Shown here: one piece after another, positions 23,388 to 63,766 of the stretch
Numbering within the stretch: position 1 is the stretch's first letter
Layout: every line of letters begins with the position of its first letter
DNA from: Fragilaria crotonensis
Lineage: Eukaryota; Bacillariophyta; Fragilariophyceae; Fragilariales; Fragilariaceae
Reading direction: 5' to 3'
DNA length: 64,000 bases
Assembly: GCA_022925895.1 (NCBI GenBank)
Contig: JAKSYS010000151.1
Span: 40,833-104,832, forward strand
The notes under the pieces: generated by a model
Told to the model about the DNA's origin: nothing
Databases searched by the model: none
The model's input: the letters and a program-made list of their open reading frames with translations, nothing else
Translations under genes and position numbers: made by a program

Positions 23388-24470
23388 TCACGTGGTTCCG
23401 TTCATGTCTGCTTCTCGTTGGTCAATCATGACGCGAAGTGCCAGAATAGTGGCAGGAGTTGTCCTGCAGCATCCGCCAATAATCAAGCGTGGCATAGGAC
23501 TTTTGATCACGCTATTCTTCGCCCATGTCTGTTCCACAATTTGGATAGCATGATACATTTCGTCCGCAAACTGATTCGGAGATGTTCCACCAGTTTCTGC
23601 TTTCCAATTCGCCTGGGTGGCATCCCACTCTTCGCCGCTGTTTGGGTAGACAACAATACCACGCTTGGGCCCATACGTTGCCATGTGGAGAGTTAATATT
23701 CGTAAAAGGTTCGACACAAACTTTCCATTGCAACAATTAAAGCCCACAGCGTTGATGAAGGCACCGGTGGGGTCAATTCTGTGAATTTCGTCGAGCACTC
23801 GTTCAAGTTCGGTACCATCATTGAGTTGATGATCATTCCTACATCCCAAGGATATCCACACAGCGATCGACGAAAGGGATGATTCTCGTACCAGTTCGGC
23901 CAAAACAATCACCTCATCCGCATTCGGCACTGTTTCAAAGGCAATCGCATCGGGGTGCTCAGGTGCAATGGCATCAATTCTTCTGAAATGAAAATCACGC
24001 AAAGCCTCCCGCGTGATGCCCTTGTAATCTCCTCGATATTCCGAACCATCGGCAAGTGCTGCGCCGTAACAACCCAGACTTGCTGCCACGTACGCGTTGG
24101 TGCGCTGCCTTGCAAGCACTACTCCTCGTCGCATGATGCCCGTCATGGTTTCGTCGTCAATGGGTTTGTGATTGAAAGAACACGAAGCTACTCCGAAGTG
24201 GCATTGATAGGTAACTGTAGACAATATGTCTGCTCCGGCAGCGGCAAACGCGTTGTGGCAGTCAACAACATCATCGTCAAGGCCATCTAATAGCAAGGAA
24301 GATGACCAGAGTTCCCGATGCGAGAAAACTTGATTTCTTTTTGCCAAGACGTGCTCTAGATAGGTACTCACTCCTCCATCCAGAAGGAGGATTGTGGGGC
24401 TGCCTTCACAGGCGAACCAGTCAAGAAGACTCAAGGAGGGGAGAGGATTGCTGCTGGATGCAGTAGGCAT
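23388..24470 (-). CDS. Homocysteine S-methyltransferase
   Basis: 360 residues, ATG at 24470, no intron, no break. The (beta/alpha)8 homocysteine methyltransferase domain fills the protein. L-L-D-G-G-V-S-T-Y-L-E near residue 30 is the N-terminal signature, and G-C-Y-G-A-A-L-A-D-G-S-E-Y-R-G-D-Y near 147 and F-E-T-V-P-N near 192 are conserved core motifs. The zinc-binding cysteines are seen in V-G-F-N-C-C (near 255) and G-G-C-C-R-T-T-P (near 335). The family moves a methyl group from S-methylmethionine or S-adenosylmethionine to homocysteine, giving methionine. No targeting signal is obvious, so it is probably cytosolic. It resembles the bacterial MmuM and plant HMT types and not the much longer cobalamin enzyme. 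Convergent with the transporter gene. Confidence 0.92.
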   Translation of the reverse strand: MPTASSSNPLPSLSLLDWFACEGSPTILLLDGGVSTYLEHVLAKRNQVFSHRELWSSSLLLDGLDDDVVDCHNAFAAAGADILSTVTYQCHFGVASCSFNHKPIDDETMTGIMRRGVVLARQRTNAYVAASLGCYGAALADGSEYRGDYKGITREALRDFHFRRIDAIAPEHPDAIAFETVPNADEVIVLAELVRESSLSSIAVWISLGCRNDHQLNDGTELERVLDEIHRIDPTGAFINAVGFNCCNGKFVSNLLRILTLHMATYGPKRGIVVYPNSGEEWDATQANWKAETGGTSPNQFADEMYHAIQIVEQTWAKNSVIKSPMPRLIIGGCCRTTPATILALRVMIDQREADMNGTT

Positions 24471-24613
24471 AGTGTCCCTTACTACTTGAAGCGCTTAGGA
24501 CATGCGTCTCCCAAACTATGGGAGGAGGTGACCGATGTTTAGATGCGCTTCTTGTATTAATAAGTGGAAATTGAGTAAACCTTATTCGGGCAATTCCTTT
24601 ATTATTTTATTTT

Positions 24614-25232
24614 AGGAAATTACGAAAACATCAAATACGTTTTCCATTTTCAATAACACCTAATGACCCTGTATAAACGAAAAAGCCCTTTGGTATTTCA
24701 CGAAAAATTTGCTCATTATTACAATAACACCAGATATCTTTGTCACGTTTTTACTATAACATCTTATTGATCTCAAACATTTACGATAACCCCATTTATT
24801 GCCAGCCATGCCAATTCTCCACAGACACATTAGTACACCGTTTCGTACCTATCATCAAAAATAAAGATCACATCCTGATTGCCATGGCCATTATCTCATT
24901 CCATGCATTATGATCAACTTTGAACCAAGGCAAGCATGTGCCTAATGTTGCATGAATAACAAAGCGTAGCGGCGGTCATAATTTGTTTTAGTAGGATGTT
25001 GTTGTTCTTTTAGATGCAATTCCGAGTCCATCTGCTTGATTGATGAATTGTTGGCATCACTGATGCCAGTACTTTACACAATTCCTCGTACCCAGTACCG
25101 TACGTTATCACATATTTTGTATCTTGAAGAGTCATCTTTATATCGCATGCTGATTCATTGCTGCATGTGCTGCATTGCCACAAGCAAGTTCTCACATACT
25201 CACCACCACTCTTCCTTGCTGGTGTGGCATCC
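24614..25232 (+). repeat. MULE left terminal inverted repeat
   Basis: Reverse complement of 27978-28590. Within the outer 180 bp the motif CAATAACACC, or close forms of it, recurs at 24651, 24721, 24757 and 24786, as expected of transposase-binding sites. The inner end is at TGGTGTGGCATCC. Confidence 0.85.
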
Positions 25233-25265
25233 ATTCCATCTCTTTCATGCACTTGTAACAACAAA

Positions 25266-26246
25266 ATGGCAAAGAAGAAAAAAGAGAAGAAATGTCACTT
25301 TCCAACCGATCCACGTTATGGCGTGAGGATCAATCCGACACGGAATGATTTGCAGGCACTTGGGGATCGGCAAATGTTGAACAGTTGTCTCCTTGACTGC
25401 CTCCTTCAGCGTTCCGCACCACCACCAATTGAAGACACTCCTTTTCAAGTTTATCTTGGAAGTCTCGAAACAAGATCATATCTGGAGAGTTGCAACGCTT
25501 TGGTACACGTTGCCCGTGAATCTGTTAAACCTTCCAACTGGAACCGGATCCAAGCCAAGATCAAAGGGATTCAGTCAACTTTTGCTGATCTTTTTTCTGA
25601 CATCAATGATGATGATACCACCAAGACTCTTATTATTCCAATTGTCAACGCAGTGCATTTCTTTGTGCTTGTGGTGGAATTCAATTTTGCATGCCGAGAA
25701 TTGTTTTTGCGTTTCGAATACTTCGATTCGTTGCGACGCGCTTCACGAGGAGTACATCCTGGAGTAATCCAAGGCACCCCTGCTTTTCTCATTGTTCGTG
25801 AGGTCAGGGATTTCTTTTTCAATTTTGTGTTGCATGGCAAGAACAAGTTGAACCATATCAGTCTTCCTTCGGATGACGATCTCATTCGCTTGGACATATT
25901 AGGTTTCCACCAATGTCCAGGACAGTATAATGACATTGACTGTGGATTATTCTGTATTGCTGTTGTCCTTCATTTGCTTGATTTCAAGCCTGTCACTGAA
26001 GACACCTTCAACTTCAACCACTGCATCCTACTTCGATCAAAATTGGCAGCCCATTTCAACCGCAAGAATGATGATGCCAATGAACAAACAAGTCAAGTTG
26101 TACGAGATTGCTTTCCAGAACTTAAGGGTACGACTATCCTCAGCAGCTATGGGGTTGAGGTCATTGTCACGGTTCCTGCTGCTGCCAAGACAAATGATGA
26201 TGACGACGATGATGATGTGATACTCATAAGCAGGGAAGATGCTTAG
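25266..26246 (+). CDS. Ulp1/SENP-like cysteine protease (C48) of the MULE
   Basis: 326 residues from the ATG at 25266, which opens M-A-K-K-K-K-E-K-K; the frame extends further upstream into the TIR but without need. The C48 peptidase fold is indicated by the catalytic His in N-A-V-H-F-F-V-L-V-V-E, the following acidic residue in E-Y-F-D-S-L, and Q-Y-N-D-I-D-C-G-L-F-C-I, where the Cys is the nucleophile and the upstream Gln lies in C-P-G-Q. The enzyme family cleaves SUMO-like conjugates. In plant Kaonashi MULEs a related domain travels with the transposase; its job there is unknown. The C-terminus is a run of seven Asp residues and Val. The TAG stop is followed at once by the ATG of the transposase in the same frame. 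The triad looks intact, so the protease may be functional. Confidence 0.82.
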   Translation: MAKKKKEKKCHFPTDPRYGVRINPTRNDLQALGDRQMLNSCLLDCLLQRSAPPPIEDTPFQVYLGSLETRSYLESCNALVHVARESVKPSNWNRIQAKIKGIQSTFADLFSDINDDDTTKTLIIPIVNAVHFFVLVVEFNFACRELFLRFEYFDSLRRASRGVHPGVIQGTPAFLIVREVRDFFFNFVLHGKNKLNHISLPSDDDLIRLDILGFHQCPGQYNDIDCGLFCIAVVLHLLDFKPVTEDTFNFNHCILLRSKLAAHFNRKNDDANEQTSQVVRDCFPELKGTTILSSYGVEVIVTVPAAAKTNDDDDDDDVILISREDA

Positions 26247-28148
26247 ATGGATGATGTAACAACCGAAGAAGCCAAGATGCCACCGACAAGAAATCTTCCT
26301 GATGACAGCTCAACTAATGGGGACAGTAAGCCAAGTGCTCATCCTAAACCTACCGCGGCGGCAACTGATGCAACAATTGATAGTCAAGGTTGTGTTTCTT
26401 CATTGACAAACAGCAAGAATGAGGACACATCTTTTCAAGATATTATGCGCCAACAAAACATTGTTGAATTTCCAAATTTGGATGATGTCAGTCCAGTCAT
26501 TGAGGCCTATGAGAAGAAATCAGGCAATCGGTTAGCCATTCGACGCAGTCTTGTTGGTGAGTATTGTCTTTACATCTGCAAGGAACATGTGAAGTGTACT
26601 TTTCAGATTTACATCGGGCGGCGCCGACTTAATGGTGTCTATGTTGTGAAGCGGAACATTACGTACCACACTGCCCAGCGATGCGAACCTGTTGCACGTG
26701 ATGGGCGTCAATGGAAGAAACAACAAGCTGGGAAACTGGACGAGATGATTGTTCAGGTTGTACGAACAAAAAAGGACGATCCAACTCCAGCTGATGTCAT
26801 AAAGACAGCTGCAAGTGTGGATGGTGAGGTAATCACTTACATGCCTGCATATCGCGCTCTGAACAATCAATCTCGTGCCCAGTTTTGGCAGAGTTCAAAG
26901 AATTTTGAACTACTGCCAGGGTACCTTGAGGCAATGAAACAGTTGAATGCCGACTCTGTCATTGGGTATTCATATGATAGGGAGAGATCCATTAAACATG
27001 TACATGTTTTCCCTCGTTTCATGAATACGGCATTAAAGTTTGCAAGACCAGTATTTCTCTGGATGCAGCACATTTAAGAGTACTTACAAAGGGACAATGT
27101 ATGTGGCTTCAGGAGTCCTTTCTGGAACAAATGAGGTGTATCCAATTGGATTCATGATCTCCTCTGGGAATGAAGATGGCAAGACGTGGACAACAATGTT
27201 GAAATACTTGAAGGCGTGCCCAATCATCTCTGAGCAGGGTTTTGGCAATGAGCGTGACAACGGAGAAATTCAGCATCCATTTCTATTTGTTTCCAACCGT
27301 GACAAGGGTCTGAAACTGGCCCTTCGAAATGTGTTTCCAAGAAATAAGGAAACGAGCTGTGCGAAACATATTGAAGCAAAGGTATGCCAGAAGTTCGGTC
27401 AACAATGTGCTCGATATGTGATGGCAATTGCAAAACGTTTCTCCTTCAGTTACTCAAATCACTTGATTGATCAAGTGAGGACCATCAAGCCGCAAGCTGC
27501 AGATTATATTGAAAATTTTGGCAACGATACCCTTTGGAGAAGTACGTCATGGCTAGATGAGCAGAATCCACTCCCACCGCATCATGGGATTGTAACCTCC
27601 AACACAAGCGAATGTGTGAACAACATGTTTGCACAGGCTCGCACTGTGGAATGGCTGGAGGCAGTAGAAAGCATTGTGGATGTAATGTCAACAAGAATTT
27701 CAACCTGCCAAACCAAGCACATTGATCGGGAGCCGGGAGAGGTTGTGCCTTGTGTGGCACAGATTCTGAAAAGGCGTTGGGATGCTGTGGCATCCATCAC
27801 AGTTGTTGAGTTGGTGCATGGGCGTGAGATTCAATGTTGTGGAGCCTTCGACAGTACAAGACTGACAAAGACCCTCACTTGCCCAGCATGCCATACAATG
27901 CAGGGCAACCAAACACTGTTTACATTGTGAAACCAGAGTTGCAGTGGTGCTCTTGTGGCATTTGGCAAGATGTTCAGGATGCCACACCAGCAAGGAAGAG
28001 TGGTGGTGAGTATGCGAGAACTTGCTTGTGGCAATGCAGCACATGCAGCAATGAATCAGCATGCGATATAAAGATGACTCTTCAAGATACAAAATATGTG
28101 ATAACGGGTAATGGGTACGAGGAATTGTGTAAGTACTGGCATCAGTGA
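26247..28148 (+). pseudogene. MULE transposase, frameshifted and with altered DDE site
   Basis: It begins with the ATG directly after the protease stop. Residues 1-70 are low complexity. An N-terminal Cys/His-containing DNA-binding region follows (C-T-F-Q-I to H-T-A-Q-R-C). The DDE core is split by two one-base losses: the first Asp block L-D-A-A-H-L at 27057-27075 is in its own frame, and from 27077 the text S-T-Y-K-G-T-M-Y-V-A-S-G runs on to 27930. The second Asp position reads F-V-S-N-R-D-K-G-L, where the family has S-D-R, so the catalytic Asp appears to be Asn. The Glu block S-N-T-S-E-C-V-N-N is present. A further one-base shift near 27909 leads to Y-I-V-K-P-E-L-Q-W-C-S-C-G-I-W-Q-D, the first half of the SWIM finger. 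The second half (C-x-H) is missing because the reading enters the right TIR. Not expected to be active. Confidence 0.8.
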
Positions 28149-28590
28149 TGCCAACAATTCATCAATCAAGCAGATGGACTCGGAATTGCATGTAAAGAAC
28201 AACAACATCCTACTAAAACAAATTATGACCGCTGCTACGCTTTGTTATTCATGCAACATTAGGCACATGCTTGCCTTGGTTCAAAGTTGATGATAGTGCA
28301 TGGAATGAGATAATGGCCATGGCAATCAGGATGTGATCTTTATTTTTGATGATAGGTACAAAACGGTGTACCAATGTGTCTGTGGAGAATTGGCATGGCT
28401 GGCGATAAATGGGGTTATTGTAAATGTTTGAGATCAATAAGATGTTATAGTAAAAACGTGACAAAGATATCTGGTGTTATTGTAATAATGAGCAAATTTT
28501 TTGTGAAATACCAAAGGGCTTTTTCGTTTATACAGGGTCATTAAGTGTTATTGAAAATGGAAAACGTATTTGATGTTTTTGTAATTTCCT
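27978..28590 (-). repeat. MULE right terminal inverted repeat
   Basis: Inverted copy of 24614-25232. Its inner edge cuts into the transposase SWIM region, so the last 57 codons of the transposase frame are TIR sequence. It carries the same spaced GGTGTTATTG words near its outer end. Confidence 0.85.
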
Positions 28591-31500
28591 TTAATGTACA
28601 CGCAAACCAAAATTACGAAAACGAAAAGGTTTTCGTTAAGAGCTCATTTACACGCCGTCAGCGGCAGCGTAGACGGAAGGGCGTCGAACCCGGACGAGCC
28701 AGCATCATGCGTCACCCAAAAGATTCGGTGACGCGCTCGAATGAGTGTGACACGGCCCCGCCTAGTGGACTACGTGCAAGCTACGAGAAAAAGAACATTT
28801 GGCACTTGGACAGAAAAACATCTATTCGCTCACGAGCTCATTGTTGGTCGAACCAGGTCCGAGGTCCGAGGAACCAGTACGGCAACAAGGCGAGACGACT
28901 CGCAAGCTTCATCGAGGGACCTGCTACAAGCCAGGTGTACCGATAAAGCGAACACGATAGTTTTATAAGCCCACCCGCCCACTCCGCACAGGACGGTAGG
29001 CACCACCACTACTACCCGGTGGCGCTAACGCCCCATGGAGATGAAGGGTACGGTAATCCTACGGTAGTAGGGTTGTCATTACCCCCATCAGTAGGCCATC
29101 TAGCACACTAACCAGTCCAGCACAGCGCACTATCTGGCGACCGTGACGTCGAGCAGCCACTGAGGCGGGAAAGCGTATGCATCCTGCCCTTTATAAATAC
29201 GACGAAAATGCTTGACGAAAACGCGATGCGTTGTCGTCAGGATTGTTCTGAATAACGGAACACTCCTCATTCCTCATTCCGTCGTTGGCTTGTTGCAGGT
29301 GTGACGCACTTGCACGAAAACTACGAAGAACTCTTTCTTAACTCATATTCTCTGCGTATACTCGTTATATTGCACAGCTGTGGGTTACTTTGATCACTGC
29401 CGGTGCAGTAGAGATTTCATAGTAAATTTCCTAGGACTGATTCAACCGGAGCTATCAATTAGGTGAAGGGAGAACAAGGAAAGGTCTTTGTCGGAACAAA
29501 GAGAGAGTTTCTTGAAGTTGGCAAATGAGCAGAGGAAAGTTCAGATGACGAATAATTTGTGAGGAGAGATTATTTTGATTCTAAAGTAGCTGGTACATTG
29601 GAATTTGCAGAGCTCCAGTAGCTTTGATATGAAGTGGTTAGTCATTGTAGTAGCTTTGCTATTGATATCAGTAGAAGTGTGAGTGAACGACGAGGTTCGT
29701 TCACTTGTTTGTATCCAATAAGAATGACCGCTGAAGTGTGATGGCAATCGAATCTGATGAAGAGTGATTCTTCGAGTAAGTGCCGGTTGAATAAATCTGT
29801 TCATTCACATTAAAACTCCGAGGCGGTGCGCAGTACGCGGTGCTGTCCTTTTCCGTATTTAAGTAGCACAGTAAAAAGTACAGTACCCCACAACAGCAAG
29901 TCATCAAACCAATTTTGCGCTGTTCCAACTGCGTGGAATATTAGATCAAGCAACGGAGCAAACGTCAACCGTCATTAGCCATAATTGTGGTGAAGCAAGT
30001 GGAAAAATGTTGTAGGAAGGGCTGGAGAGTGACAAGAAGTTATTCTGGAATGATGCTTCAAGTTGAGGATCAAATTTCTGCGCAGGACAGAGCTCACTTG
30101 CTTGCTTGATAGATTGTTGCGCTGGTTGTTAATAAGTATTGGAACCGCCACTTCTATGTGAAATTCATAGAGATTCCGCATCTTAAAAAGTTCCCGGGGC
30201 TTTATTGTCACTCTCATTTTGCATTTGCAGAGAAGTGATGAGTTACATGAATTGAGGGCGAGAGCTGGCACCATCACTTCTACAAGATGCTGATCTAACA
30301 GCAGGGCATGGATGGTATTGCCCGCCGGCATGGAGCCTTCTGGAATTGTGACAAGTACTGTATTCTGTTTGTGATTCCAGTTTGGACAGTTGTCTCACAT
30401 ATGTGATCCAATCTAATTCAAAAGTCCTACAATGGCAAATGAATGACGCAGTGGAGGATTGTATTCAGTGTACTAGATCTTCAACAGCACATGAATGCAC
30501 AACTATTACTAGTGAAACAATCTTCCACCTGCATGACTCCGACTAGACTACATGTAACCACTTTTTTCATAATGGGACGCTGCCTTTTATTTACAGGTCG
30601 TACCTACTCGGTACTGGTACTGCAGAGGATGCGCACCAAAACTGTGCGATTTGACCCCTCCGATTGAGATGAAGAACTTTTTCGTTTTCGCTACCAGGTA
30701 CTGTATAGCTGTTGTCGTGTAAGGGCGTAGCCGCGTAGCCCACGAAAACGCATCCCACGAATATAAAAATGTTTCCGTTTTCATTTTCGTTTTCCGTATA
30801 AGGAAAAGCCTTATGACGTGTTATTAACAGAAACGTGTTTTGCTCTATTGCAGACTACATTTTTTTCAATGAAACGGTGCAATTTTCAAAGTGGTTATAA
30901 TTTGGTTTAGCTGTCTTTCTTTGCAATTTTTTCAGTTATTGCAAAGGCTCACAGAGGTGAGCTTCTTGCACTTCAATTGAGATGTTAGTATTGTACACAA
31001 AAATCTGGTATGCAGGACAACACCAGAGGGAATTCCATTTTGCCAATTTTTCTTAAAGTTGCGTAACAGAAAAAACAACACTGAAAAAGCGCAATCGGGA
31101 GCACGCGTTTCTGGTCACCTATTGAGCCAGTCATTAGGTTGGTACTTGCAGTGAACAAATCATCCTGCAAAATAGAACGCCGCGTCTGTTTTGCGGAAAA
31201 AGGGTCCATTCAGGCCCCCAAACGGCCCAGCATTGTGGTGTGTTACCGGGGTCTCACAAAACGTAACAACCGAGTTTGTGTATGAGGTGCTACTACGTAG
31301 TTAGAACTCGGACTAGATGGGACAAGAAGAAGGCAGAGGACGATGTGGTACTACAGTAGTCTATGACTACTATGGAGTACAGTGCTGCAAGTTGTGGTAC
31401 GCGAACAGGCGTCTATTCTTGTCTTCGGAACTCATCTCACTGTCGTCGATAACCGCATCCGATAGAAAAGCTCGTCATTTGATCCGAGACGGTGAATCGT

Positions 31501-58975: not shown

Positions 58976-61900
58976 CTACGGCGGTGAACACTTCGGCTGG
59001 TACGCTACCACTGGCTTACCGAGCAAGAGGTCGCATTGCTCTTGTCCCGAAAGGGCACCGAATCCACTAAGAACACCTGGGACTGGAGTTTTGGGTCCGC
59101 CGTACGGTTCACCAGCTTCGCTCCAGAGTCGACCCAGGAAACAACTGTCGACGCACCCTTTGGAGTCCACTTTGGCGGCGCAATGACGCAAGCCATTCAT
59201 GTGATTTGCAGAGTACTCCTGCACGAACACTTTGTTGCCGACAACAAACATGTCGATACGGATGTAGACACCAATCTTCTCCCCCAATGCGAGGGCAATG
59301 TCGTTCATTTCCTGAAGCAGGCATGCATCCAAATCAGGGACGTCCACACACAAGTACAAATCCCTCTTGACAGGACCTTTCTTGACCTTGCCCGTGGTAA
59401 AGTCAATTTCTGTACATTGAGTGACGGGGTCTACCATTTCGACACCGCCTGGTTCGAAACAACCAAATCTGTCGAGGCGATTCCAGTTCGTGTCCACGAC
59501 AGCATAACACGGACAACTGGTGCCACGTCCTTGAATGATATCGATTGCAGCCACAGTTCCGTTAACAACGTGGAATTTGTACTCCGTAGGGAGAGTGGTA
59601 CCAATGAATTCTTCAACAATGATCTTGGTGACCTTCAACATAGAGAGCTGCGTAATAATATCAGTGAACGACACATGAGTTCCGGTTATCAAGTCCAAAG
59701 GATTCACATCCTTCGGATCCGGAACTAGAACATACACCCCCAGGCTGGAATGGAGGTTCGTTGCCTTGACAACAATGCCGCCCTCGGACGAAGCATTGTA
59801 CGCACTGGTCAAACAAGCAGCCAGCTCTGTAACATTGGTCACGCAGCAGAAGATCTCAGGCGCCGGAGCATTCTCGGTGAGAGAGAGCATGTAACCAGCA
59901 ATCTTGTCTTCCAAGTAGTGGAACCAGTAGCCCTCAGTTGCCAAGCTCGCGGCGCCATCGGCGGTACGGAATGCGTTGGTGCGATTTTGAATGAGGGTCG
60001 GCAATGATTCACTAGGCTTGCAGAAATCTGAACGAGGAGTGAGCAAAACGAAGACAAGGAGCCCACACTGTTTCCCAACGATTCGAACAAGACTTACCAG
60101 TGGAGCGGAATGGGACACAAAGTGTGCAGTTCGACGTAGTGACAACCTCGCAGAAATCAGGAAATGAACTAGGGCTGCTCGATGGAACGGGTAGGGAATC
60201 CAGAGGGGTTTGTTTTCTGGTTGGCGTCACGCTTGGTATCGAGCTAGGGCCTGCAGATGCCACCTTCGACGGTTCGTTGCTTGGTGATGGACTTGGAACC
60301 TCGCTGCGTACCACCGAAGGCTTCCTCGACGGTGAAGAGGAAGGATCTCTCGAAGGCGCAACACTTGGACTTGAGCTTGGAACAGTGGACGCCACCTTCG
60401 ACGGTACGTCGCTTGGTGATGGACTTGGAACCTCGCTGCGTACCACCGAAGGCTTCCTCGACGGTGAAGAGGAAGGATCTCTCGAAGGCGCAACACTTGG
60501 ACTTGAGCTTGGAACAGTGGACGCCACCTTCGACGGTACGTCGCTTGGAGATGGACTTGGAACCTCGCTGCGAACCACGGACGGTTTCCTCGACGGCGAA
60601 GAGGAAGGATCTCTCGAAGGCGCAACACTTGGACTGGAACTTGGAACAGTGGACGCCACCTTCGACGGTACGTCGCTTGGTGATGGACTTGGAACCTCGC
60701 TGCGTACCACCGAAGGCTTCCTCGACGGCGAAGAGGAAGGATCTCTCGAAGGCGAAACACTTGGACTGGAGCTTGGAACAGTGGACGCCACCTTCGACGG
60801 TTCGTCGCTTGGTGATGGACTTGGAACCTCGCTGCGTACCACCGAAGGCTTCCTCGACGGCGAAGAGGAAGGATCTCTCGAAGGCGCAACACTTGGACTG
60901 GAACTTGGAACAGTGGACGCCACCTTCGACGGTTCGTCGCTTGGTGATGGACTTGGAACCTCGCTGCGAACCACGGACGGTTTCCTCGACGGCGAAGAGG
61001 AAGGATCTCTCGAAGGCGCAACACTTGGACTGGAACTTGGAACAGTGGACGCCACCTTCGACGGTTTGTTGCTTGGTGAAAAACTTGGACCCTCGCTCTT
61101 AACAACCGATGGCTTCCTCGATGGCACAGAAGAAGGATCTCTTGAGGGTGCGCCACTGGGGTGCGCACTAGGTTCCGATGAAGGGATCAAGCTTGGTCGA
61201 CGAGAAGGAGATTCACTTGGAGAAGAGCTCGGAGCATTGGTATCGACGAAGTTGTTGCCAGCGTCCACTTCCGCGGGTTTCAAATTCACCTTAATGACGT
61301 TATCTACCGCTGTGTCGCCGTCGAATTCGTCGCCGTCGCCTTCAGCATCATAATCACTCACGTCAAGTGCGAAGAATGGAGAATTTTGCTCCTCGACGGT
61401 GTAGTTGCTAGGACCGAGGTCACTGAAGACATACTTTCCGTTCGAGTCGGTTGCAGTTGTGGCAACTACCGTGCCGTTGGAGGTCTTCAGAGTCAGCAGC
61501 ACCGACGGAATAGGATTGCCACTTTCGTCCTCGACATCACCGGATATGCTACCGCGGCGCTCATCAACGAAGTCATTACCGATGGAGTCGTCACCTCCGA
61601 TGACTGAGACTGTGATCTTGTTCGCATCACCTCCGTCCTTATCTTTCACGTCCTTGTATGAAGCATCCAAATTCACTTGCCCGACGGAATATGTTCCAGC
61701 AGTCAGGTTCACAAACTTGTACGCACCATTGGAGTCCGTGAGCGTTGTTGCAAGGATGGCATTAGTTTTCCCGAAAAGAATGATTAGCACTCCTGGCAAA
61801 ACGACGTCGCCGTTGTCGTCATTGTTGATATCTTCAAAGACAGTGCCACTGATTGTAGCAAGGATGACTGGGGTTGAAACAGTTACAGTCCTATTTGGAA

Positions 61901-63766
61901 ATGATTTCACAACCATCTTCGCTGTGTTCTCAATGTCATTGACACCGAACTTGATCTTCTTCGTGATGTCAGCCGCCTGGGATGTGTACGATCCGCGATA
62001 GGTAAACGTTTCTCCTCGGCTTAGAATTCCAGGGGTATCATCAAAGGATTCAAATGGGCCCGTCAGCTCTCCTCCGGAATCAGCAATTAACGGGTCTAAG
62101 ACGAGAACGTTGGTAGCCAAAAGATCAGAGAACCCCGCGTTGGTCACAGTGATCTCATAGTAGATAGTGTCACCGACTTCATCGACCAGCAGCCTTTCGT
62201 CTGGTGAACCATCTGGGTTAGTCACGTTAACGACGTTCTTGCTGAGAAAAGGATTTGGCAAGGGAACAACGACAGTCCCCATATCTAATCCTTGCGAGTC
62301 CTGCTGACCAGAGCGAATGGGATCCTGCCCCCAAGCCACTGCAATTCTTACTGGCGTTCCAGTGGGCTTTTTGTTGAGGCCTTGATTGGTAAAACTGGCG
62401 ATAATGGCGCCTGTCATGTCCTTGTCAAGGTTCTTGGTATCGACGAGTCTTAATGCGTCAAGAGCGCCAACATCAAACACATCGTCGAAGACACCGTCGC
62501 CATCGTAGTCAACAAAAATCTTGGAATCAGCGACAGGCGTAACCCAGATCACACTGCGTTCAGCTTTACTAGCGTACCTCGGGTCGTCACAGGAAGGGGT
62601 GGTACATCCCTTCCCCATGCCGATTAGAACTTGGGAAGTGAGTTTATTCGACGGAATCAAGGGAAATCCCCAGTCAAAGATCGTTCCGTCCAGGGAATTA
62701 CCAGTGGTATCGGCATCAATCTGGGCAAGGACGTAGAACTTGCTGGTTGAAAAGAACCGCAAACCAGTGTAGTACGCCGTTTTAGAACCCACTGTAGTGT
62801 TAGATTCAGTGCCGACTTGAATGGCGTCCGCACCAGCCGTCGTCTTCGCTTGCAGGAACTTTCCACCACCCGGAGGAATCGTGATTGATCCTGGAGACAC
62901 AAGGTTGCCACCATCGTAGTCGACGGTGATGGTCGCAGTTCCTGGATTGTAGAACCAGAAGCCAGTGTTTCCAAGAGTTTCAGCAACAGGCGAGTAGTAC
63001 TCATTGGTGAAATCCTCAGACGGCACCAACGCATACCATCGTAACTCGTATTGACTGTTAGCATCGCCACCAATTACATCTACTTGGATCGGACGGTTGG
63101 AAGTTAGAGACTGTCCTCGCACAAGAGGACGGAGGAGCAAGGTTTCTCCAGCAGAAAGCTCGGTTGTGTTCCCCTTGTACGTGACTTGAGTCTCGTCAAA
63201 ACCAGCCATGACGCTGAAAACAGCATACTCGAAAGGGTTCGTTCCTGCCGATTCTTGCGAGATGGGGGAAAGGAATTCAGTTCCCCAGGTCTGAACGGCG
63301 AAGACTTCGACAGCACCTGCCAGCAGCGACCCAGGAGAGTTGGGATAGGCAGAACGAGTGACAGCAATTGGAAGGGTGGCCGAGATGCGATCAGCGCCAT
63401 CGTACCGGATGACACTTGATCGATTGCCCGAAATGGGGACAACATTTTCCAATACGACAGCATCACCTCCATTCAAAACTGGACGAGGTCCACTCCCCGC
63501 ACCCCAAATCTCAGTTGTCGGCTGGACAGGTTCGAAGGATCAAGTTCATATCCATCCTCCCAATGATCCCAGTATATGACAGTGTTGTTCGCAGCAATTG
63601 CAACTGAAATGATGGTCGTAATAGGTCCCTTGACTGCAGCGTTAATCCCTTTAAAAGTTGTGAATAGCTCTTCTTCCGGAAAAGGGATGAAGTACGTCTG
63701 GACAATGGAATCACCAGAGGCCAACGCGAGCGCGCTCAGAATGAGAGAGGCAGTAAGGAACTGCAT
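58976..63766 (-). CDS. Large secreted protein: SdrD/Cna-B-like repeats, Pro-Ser repeat stalk, C-terminal ATP-grasp-like domain
   Basis: The ATG at 63766 opens a signal peptide M-Q-F-L-T-A-S-L-I-L-S-A-L-A-L-A. W-D-H-W-E-D-G-Y-E-L follows, then a one-base shift at about 63529 (a CC that reads as CCC in the expected frame), then a long frame to 60098. A 70-bp GT-AG intron (60097-60028) joins C-V-P-F-R-S-T to D-F-C-K-P-S and exon 60027-58976. In total there are about 1570 residues. Domains: an N-terminal beta-rich region of about 470 residues with a D-Y-D-G-D-G-V-F-D-D-V site, a DUF11-like segment, two SdrD/Cna-B-like repeats (V-F-E-D-I-N-N-D-D-N-G-D; T-D-S-N-G-K-Y-V-F-S-D-L), a P-S-x-x-P-S stalk, and an ATP-grasp-like end with I-I-V-E-E-F-I-G and Y-I-R-I-D-M-F-V-V-G-N-K-V-F-V-Q-E-Y-S. 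It is probably a wall or surface protein. No sortase motif was seen. Confidence 0.75.
60250..61110 (-). repeat. 132-bp coding tandem repeat (44-residue Pro-Ser unit)
   Basis: About six and a half units of exactly 132 bp encode a 44-residue unit of the type S-R-D-P-S-S-S-P-S-R-K-P-S-V-V-R-S-E-V-P. The copies differ mainly by synonymous or single-residue changes (D-E-P/D-V-P, V-A-P/V-S-P), so the array has expanded or been homogenised recently. Because the unit length is a multiple of three, several other frames on both strands are also free of stops. Confidence 0.92.

Follow-up and report, generated by a model that had tools for sequence, protein, structure and literature searches.

The stretch of DNA analysed here, called the window throughout, comprises 64,000 nucleotides of the diatom Fragilaria crotonensis (contig JAKSYS010000151.1, positions 40,833 to 104,832 of the forward strand). 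Between its positions 24615 and 28589 lies a Mutator-like element (MULE) whose terminal inverted repeats (TIRs) enclose a protease of the C48/Ulp1 type and a MULE transposase. A preliminary description of the same DNA had put the repeats around these two domains at about 615 bp, and this was borne out. Aligned arm against arm, 24614-25232 and 27977-28590 share 619 aligned bases at 97.1% identity, with 13 mismatches and 5 gap positions, a match far above chance expectation, and the coding part matches the Pfam families PF02902, PF10551 and PF00872. The inverted repeat was also detected in an ungapped comparison of the window arms. With its MULE-type DDE domain and its long terminal inverted repeats, the element belongs to the MULE superfamily. 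Its features are the following.

24606..24614, no strand: left flank TTTATTTTA, a candidate 9-bp target duplication with 7 of 9 positions matching the right flank; read by eye, imperfect and weak
24615..25232, plus strand: left terminal inverted repeat, first bases GGAAATTACGAAAAC; the sister copies open with GGGGAAATTAC
25266..26246, plus strand: the Ulp1/C48 protease (PF02902) of the fused protein, with TAG after 326 codons
25656..25658, plus strand: codon of the putative catalytic His131, invariant in the aligned proteases
25725..25727, plus strand: codon of the putative catalytic Asp154, likewise invariant
25923..25925, plus strand: codon of Gln220, likewise invariant
25941..25943, plus strand: codon of the putative catalytic Cys226 (in the motif DCG), likewise invariant
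26244..26246, plus strand: TAG codon, with GAG at the same place in the sister copies C330, C149 and C80
26247..27077, plus strand: linker and MuDR-type DNA-binding region of the transposase, in the frame of the protease
27037..27930, plus strand: MULE (DDE) transposase core (PF10551, PF00872), in a frame that differs from that of the N-terminal part
27828..27976, plus strand: C-terminal remnant with the first half of the SWIM finger (CSC), in the third frame
27977..28589, minus strand: right terminal inverted repeat, in which 27977-28089, the inner part, is a 5'-side copy that replaces the 3' end of the gene
28590..28598, no strand: right flank TTTAATGTA, candidate target duplication, read by eye and weak

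The protease open reading frame (ORF) at 25266-26246 matches PF02902 at E=1.2e-4, with 22.4 bits against a cut-off of 20.7. This match and the His-Asp-Gln-Cys set are hallmarks of the C48/Ulp1-SENP group, and the nearest solved structures by profile are SENP1 (best, E=1.1e-7), SENP2, SENP7 and Ulp1. The His, acidic residue, Gln and Cys reported in the preliminary description are indeed all present: His131, Asp154, Gln220 and Cys226 are unchanged in 12 of 12 aligned family proteases, rows that were chosen from open copies and include several near-copies of each other. By analogy with Ulp1/SENP, we take Gln220 to be the oxyanion-hole position. On the transposase side, 27037-27927 matches PF10551 (MULE, E=2.6e-6) and PF00872 (E=3e-6), both above the cut-offs, and the D, D and E candidates, which presumably form the catalytic triad, are invariant in 4 of 4 relatives. 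The Pfam scan gave no match to the linker and DNA-binding region of the window copy (26247-27077), while three of five scanned relatives carry a weak PF03108 match there (E=0.0022, 0.0027 and 0.081).

The transposase of the window has undergone two frame changes and has lost its 3' end. Introns were set aside as the source of the frame changes, since the C330 copy reads the same part as one open frame of 522 amino acids. Beyond 27976 the window copy is without about 450 bp of gene end and has about 113 bp of 5'-side repeat sequence instead. Because of this replacement, its right arm is longer than the arms of the sister copies (about 500-511 bp), and the repeat length of 615 bp is therefore peculiar to the window copy; the repeats of the relatives C49, C875 and C54 measure 493-594 bp. 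C330, C149 and C80 open with GGGGAAATTAC, and the window has GGAAATTAC at that place. These sister copies are likewise broken. Judged by its sequence, the window copy is a dead, non-autonomous member of its family.

Both flanks were compared in four copies: a perfect 9-bp target duplication was found in C875 (TTATTTGTA) and in C49 (TTTAAAAAA), 7 of 9 positions agree in the window (weak) and 6 of 9 in C149. The sister pairs C509/C49 and C875/C54 diverge no more than a few bases from the left repeat end, and the right limit is common to C873, C22 and C165 within two bases; the relatives therefore did move. The window repeat itself gave 25 matches over 16 contigs of the 62.1 Mb genome, both window arms counted. 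At C862:52649-53328 (L014, L019), two copies of the repeat with 74-77% identity stand back to back as a short element of about 0.7 kb.

Protease and transposase of the window lie in one frame and are separated only by the TAG at 26244-26246. Among the four copies this TAG is peculiar to the window, and the three sister copies carry GAG. We compared the junction at the 30 loci where both halves are readable: it is open and in frame at 19 of them, with one composite element (C20, described below) counted among the 19. All five ORFs scanned with Pfam contain C48 and MULE together. Three of these (C165, C49 and C875) start within the protease, the beginning of which is in a different frame. A sixth ORF outside the Pfam scan, that of C873 with 1042 residues, runs from the protease start through the CCHC knuckle. 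The domain order in the family is Ulp1, acidic linker, MuDR-type DNA-binding region (weak PF03108), MULE DDE, SWIM and CCHC. From these reading frames, the family very probably encodes one fused polypeptide with an N-terminal Ulp1/C48 protease, the window copy being a dead member of it.

We then asked of the whole genome how closely the two halves keep together. Matches were merged into loci by script with all rows used (104, 130, 44 and 91), and the resulting counts are lower bounds. At 52 of 73 window-type transposase loci a same-strand protease is found no more than 2.5 kb upstream, and at 54 no more than 6 kb. For comparison, "other MULE" loci were defined as the 43 of 91 PF10551 loci without overlap to a window-type locus. 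None of the 43 has a same-strand upstream protease. At six of them, spread over five contigs, an opposite-strand protease is found within 6 kb; the other 37 are without any. The distances of protease and transposase co-vary, with a Mantel r of 0.87 (p=2e-4) over 30 loci and of 0.69 (p=4e-4) over nine distinct representatives; out of 34 protease loci, the set takes in the 30 that reach 190 protease and 110 transposase residues. On this pattern of loci and distances, the protease is a long-standing component of the element and not a one-off capture. The host C48 gene pairs C460/C52 and C493/C232 (L072, L074, L075, L076) are near-identical on different contigs. This suggests that both haplotypes are present in the assembly, and copy counts may be inflated accordingly.

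Signs of selection were sought in the ratio of replacement to silent substitution rates (dN/dS) of the protease. In the C87 group, whose seven copies form 21 pairs, dN/dS is 0.05-0.10 at dS 0.03-0.13 in five pairs (C87-C131a, C87-C707, C87-C305, C131a-C707 and C131a-C305), and one further pair, at dS 0.01, is free of replacement changes. For close pairs of other lineages the ratio is 0.17-0.66. Between lineages the ratio is 0.12-0.27, a value near saturation because dS is 1.5-2.9. That the N-terminal fusion is spread over a broad radiation within this one genome, keeps its catalytic residues and in some young copies bears signs of purifying selection is an argument for a protease that serves the element.

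As to what that service might be, the transposase part would bind the long repeats and so carry the protease to the element ends. There the protease would strip the transposase itself, host chromatin or repair proteins of SUMO or a tag like it. Removal of the tag could spare the transposase, ease silencing, or help repair of the break. Such deSUMOylation in cis at the element ends is our favoured guess at the role, and a tentative one. Both predicted activities reside in one protein with identifiable catalytic residues.

Several observations weigh against a protease that is a lasting and working part of the element. No same-strand protease lies within 2.5 kb at 21 of the 73 transposase loci (19 of 73 within 6 kb). 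Four of the 21 were inspected: one reaches the end of its contig, two are truncated at the 5' end, and the fourth, C89, has a near-complete DNA-binding region with no protease found. Of the 16 contigs with the window repeat, only 6 show a protease match no farther than 4 kb away, and 10 have the repeat without it; on C361 and C787 transposase pieces adjoin the repeat, with no protease match in that range. On the protease side, 25 of the 82 loci are without a MULE match in the surrounding 6 kb, five of these being host-type genes. The C87 group also contains 15 pairs out of 21 with protease dN/dS of 0.34-0.82, and in the four broken copies of the window subfamily the protease stands at 0.76-1.24 against 0.30-0.59 for the transposase part. 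Some young lineages therefore show selection on the protease, whereas the dead copies of the window subfamily do not. Structure prediction of the window protease alone reached a mean pLDDT (predicted local distance difference test) of 38 and gave no usable model. The catalytic activity and the substrate of the protease are predicted. SUMO-binding-like motifs occur in the linkers of two of eight lineages, one linker being taken per lineage, which is at chance level (p=0.14).

Other roles were weighed against deSUMOylation in cis. By analogy with the VANC/KIU proteins of Arabidopsis, the protease could be an anti-silencing factor that acts in trans, outside the strand transfer steps. The available part of PMC13317346 describes Ulp1-carrying VANC genes of VANDAL elements as inducing hypomethylation, the role of Ulp1 itself being unknown; the diatom protease, however, forms part of the transposase, and we regard a trans factor as possible though somewhat unlikely. 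A self-processing module, in which the protease cuts the fusion and frees the transposase in the manner of a polyprotein, would suit an N-terminal protease joined by an acidic linker (13-27% D/E), and Gly-Gly is present in three of the eight linkers. Yet this frequency is at chance level (p=0.28), and Gly-Gly is not kept between close relatives, C509 having GG where C49 has GA, so that self-processing appears unlikely. Both Gly-Gly self-cleavage and SUMO-binding motifs of the linker were set aside, each being at chance level.

Much less probable still is the recent capture of a host SENP gene, of the Pack-MULE type, with the protease a passenger that has no role. MULEs do capture host genes, according to the parts of PMC13317346 and PMC2528002 available, and the dN/dS of the window-subfamily protease would suit a passenger. 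Host C48 genes are of at least three kinds in this genome, labelled SENP1-like, SENP6/7-like and NEDP1-like from their sequence. In the tree, 12 transposon proteases stand on one side of a branch and three host C48 genes on the other, with support of 99/98 and a branch length of 2.64 for which the program issued a long-branch warning. The context of the catalytic His is HFFV or HFYV in the transposon proteases and HW in the three host genes. This separation, the co-variation of protease and transposase distances, the invariant catalytic residues and the low dN/dS in 5 of 21 young-copy pairs all speak against a recent capture, and we set it aside as very unlikely. The preliminary description had expected a one-off capture to reveal itself by a protease that groups with host SENP genes and is missing from other copies with the same repeat. 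The outcome is mixed and does not refute a lasting component: near-complete copies that share the repeat (C330, C149 and C80) keep the protease and the proteases stand apart from the host genes, with the warning just given, while the protease accompanies the repeat on the 6 of 16 contigs only. Farther afield, 49 pattern stretches in viral contigs and 57 in bacterial and archaeal genomes yielded no relative, collections that say nothing about other diatoms. Least probable of all is that the element holds two separate genes, as the preliminary description had pictured them, with the protease gene truly ending at the TAG: an in-frame ATG directly behind the TAG resembles a gene boundary, and 11 of the 30 loci, window included, have stops or frame changes between the halves, but GAG in all three sisters, the 19 open junctions and the joint domains of all five scanned ORFs make a pair of genes highly improbable.

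A fused protease with a lasting place in the element can now be set beside known systems. The preliminary description had proposed a stramenopile counterpart of Kaonashi. What holds of this is that a stramenopile MULE carries an Ulp1 protease as a lasting part; the Kaonashi layout does not hold. Kaonashi / KI-MULEs, with the KIU genes of Arabidopsis (VANDAL group), have in common with the diatom family that a multi-copy MULE carries an Ulp1/C48 domain. In the passages available, Kaonashi MULEs are non-TIR elements whose protease is oriented opposite to mudrA (PMC2528002), and the protease is one of three genes (PMC13317346). The diatom family, set apart by these published descriptions, is neither non-TIR nor equipped with a reverse-oriented separate Ulp1 gene; it has TIRs of more than 500 bp and a same-strand protease in N-terminal fusion. 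The further statement that Ulp1-carrying MULEs are known from plants is too narrow, since the part of PMC2836005 available reports Mutator Ulp1 domains in hydra and lancelet. The Ulp1-bearing Mutator elements of grapevine, melon, rice, maize, hydra and lancelet, known here by description only (partial texts of PMC2528002 and PMC2836005), share Ulp1 in a MULE and differ in host group. A legend in PMC2836005 aligns the Ulp1 domains of "Mutator TPases", so the Mutator elements from grapevine to lancelet may include fusions of the diatom kind.

Ginger1, as excerpts of PMC2836005 present it, likewise fuses a DDE transposase to an Ulp1 or OTU protease. Its transposase is Gypsy-integrase-like, however, and its protease C-terminal, whereas the diatom family joins a MULE transposase to an N-terminal protease. 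MULE-Diatoms, group 37 of Dupeyron et al. 2019 (PMC6446971), resemble our family as diatom MULEs with a SWIM finger; compared by description, they differ in a TIR of 123-124 bp and in having no other motif in Table 1. The words "ulp" and "protease" have no occurrence in the main text of PMC6446971, and the available part of PMC5735166 leaves Ulp1 and C48 unmentioned. Among the matches listed from the open-access literature (titles and abstract openings, with Repbase Reports outside), there was no recognised Ulp1-MULE fusion in diatoms. Ulp1 in MULEs is thus already known, and the N-terminal fused form seems new against this material. In the source passages at hand, Ulp1 domains occur in several unrelated transposon groups, and their role is called unknown or merely suggested.

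The same genome also contains a composite element of another layout. On C20 (L042/L068), C137 (L031/L062), C313 (L032/L063), C346 (L036/L070) and C579 (L040/L069), a protease ORF stands tail to tail with a MULE transposase of another lineage on the opposite strand. The DNA-binding region follows the protease in frame in C20 and in broken frames in C137, C313 and C579; none was found after the protease of C346. The transposase ORF of C20 has 795 residues. The left end GCGGATCCGATTAACTGTCACC is common to C346, C20 and C193 within two bases, and C579 meets the contig end there; no target duplication was seen for C346. For two long ORFs of that other MULE lineage, with 985 and 1116 residues, Pfam gave no C48 match. 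This suggests that the composite is a second acquisition of the protease, in a layout like the one reported for Kaonashi; it is nearer to KI in the opposite-strand layout only. A more ambitious reading would be that a whole MULE radiation keeps a built-in SUMO-type protease by selection, the transposase delivering it to the ends and so unlocking them, and that the protease and DNA-binding half moved again, in opposite orientation, into an unrelated MULE lineage, which would independently repeat the Kaonashi layout. Taken as a whole, we consider this reading doubtful.

Some minor observations concern the surroundings. A homocysteine S-methyltransferase gene lies at 23388-24470 on the minus strand (PF02574, E=7.2e-56); its start codon is about 145 bp from the element, which is thus upstream of it. 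At 60012-63209 on the minus strand, the window holds an ORF of 1065 residues with SdrD_B-like domains and a 132-bp tandem repeat that codes for PS-rich stretches. In the genome, the silicon transporter family gave 19 matches, ten of them at E below 1e-100, which marks the host as a diatom. Tandem silicon transporter domains occur in single open frames, three within 1456 residues at C97:29749-33762 and two within 1008 residues at C771:21664-24330.

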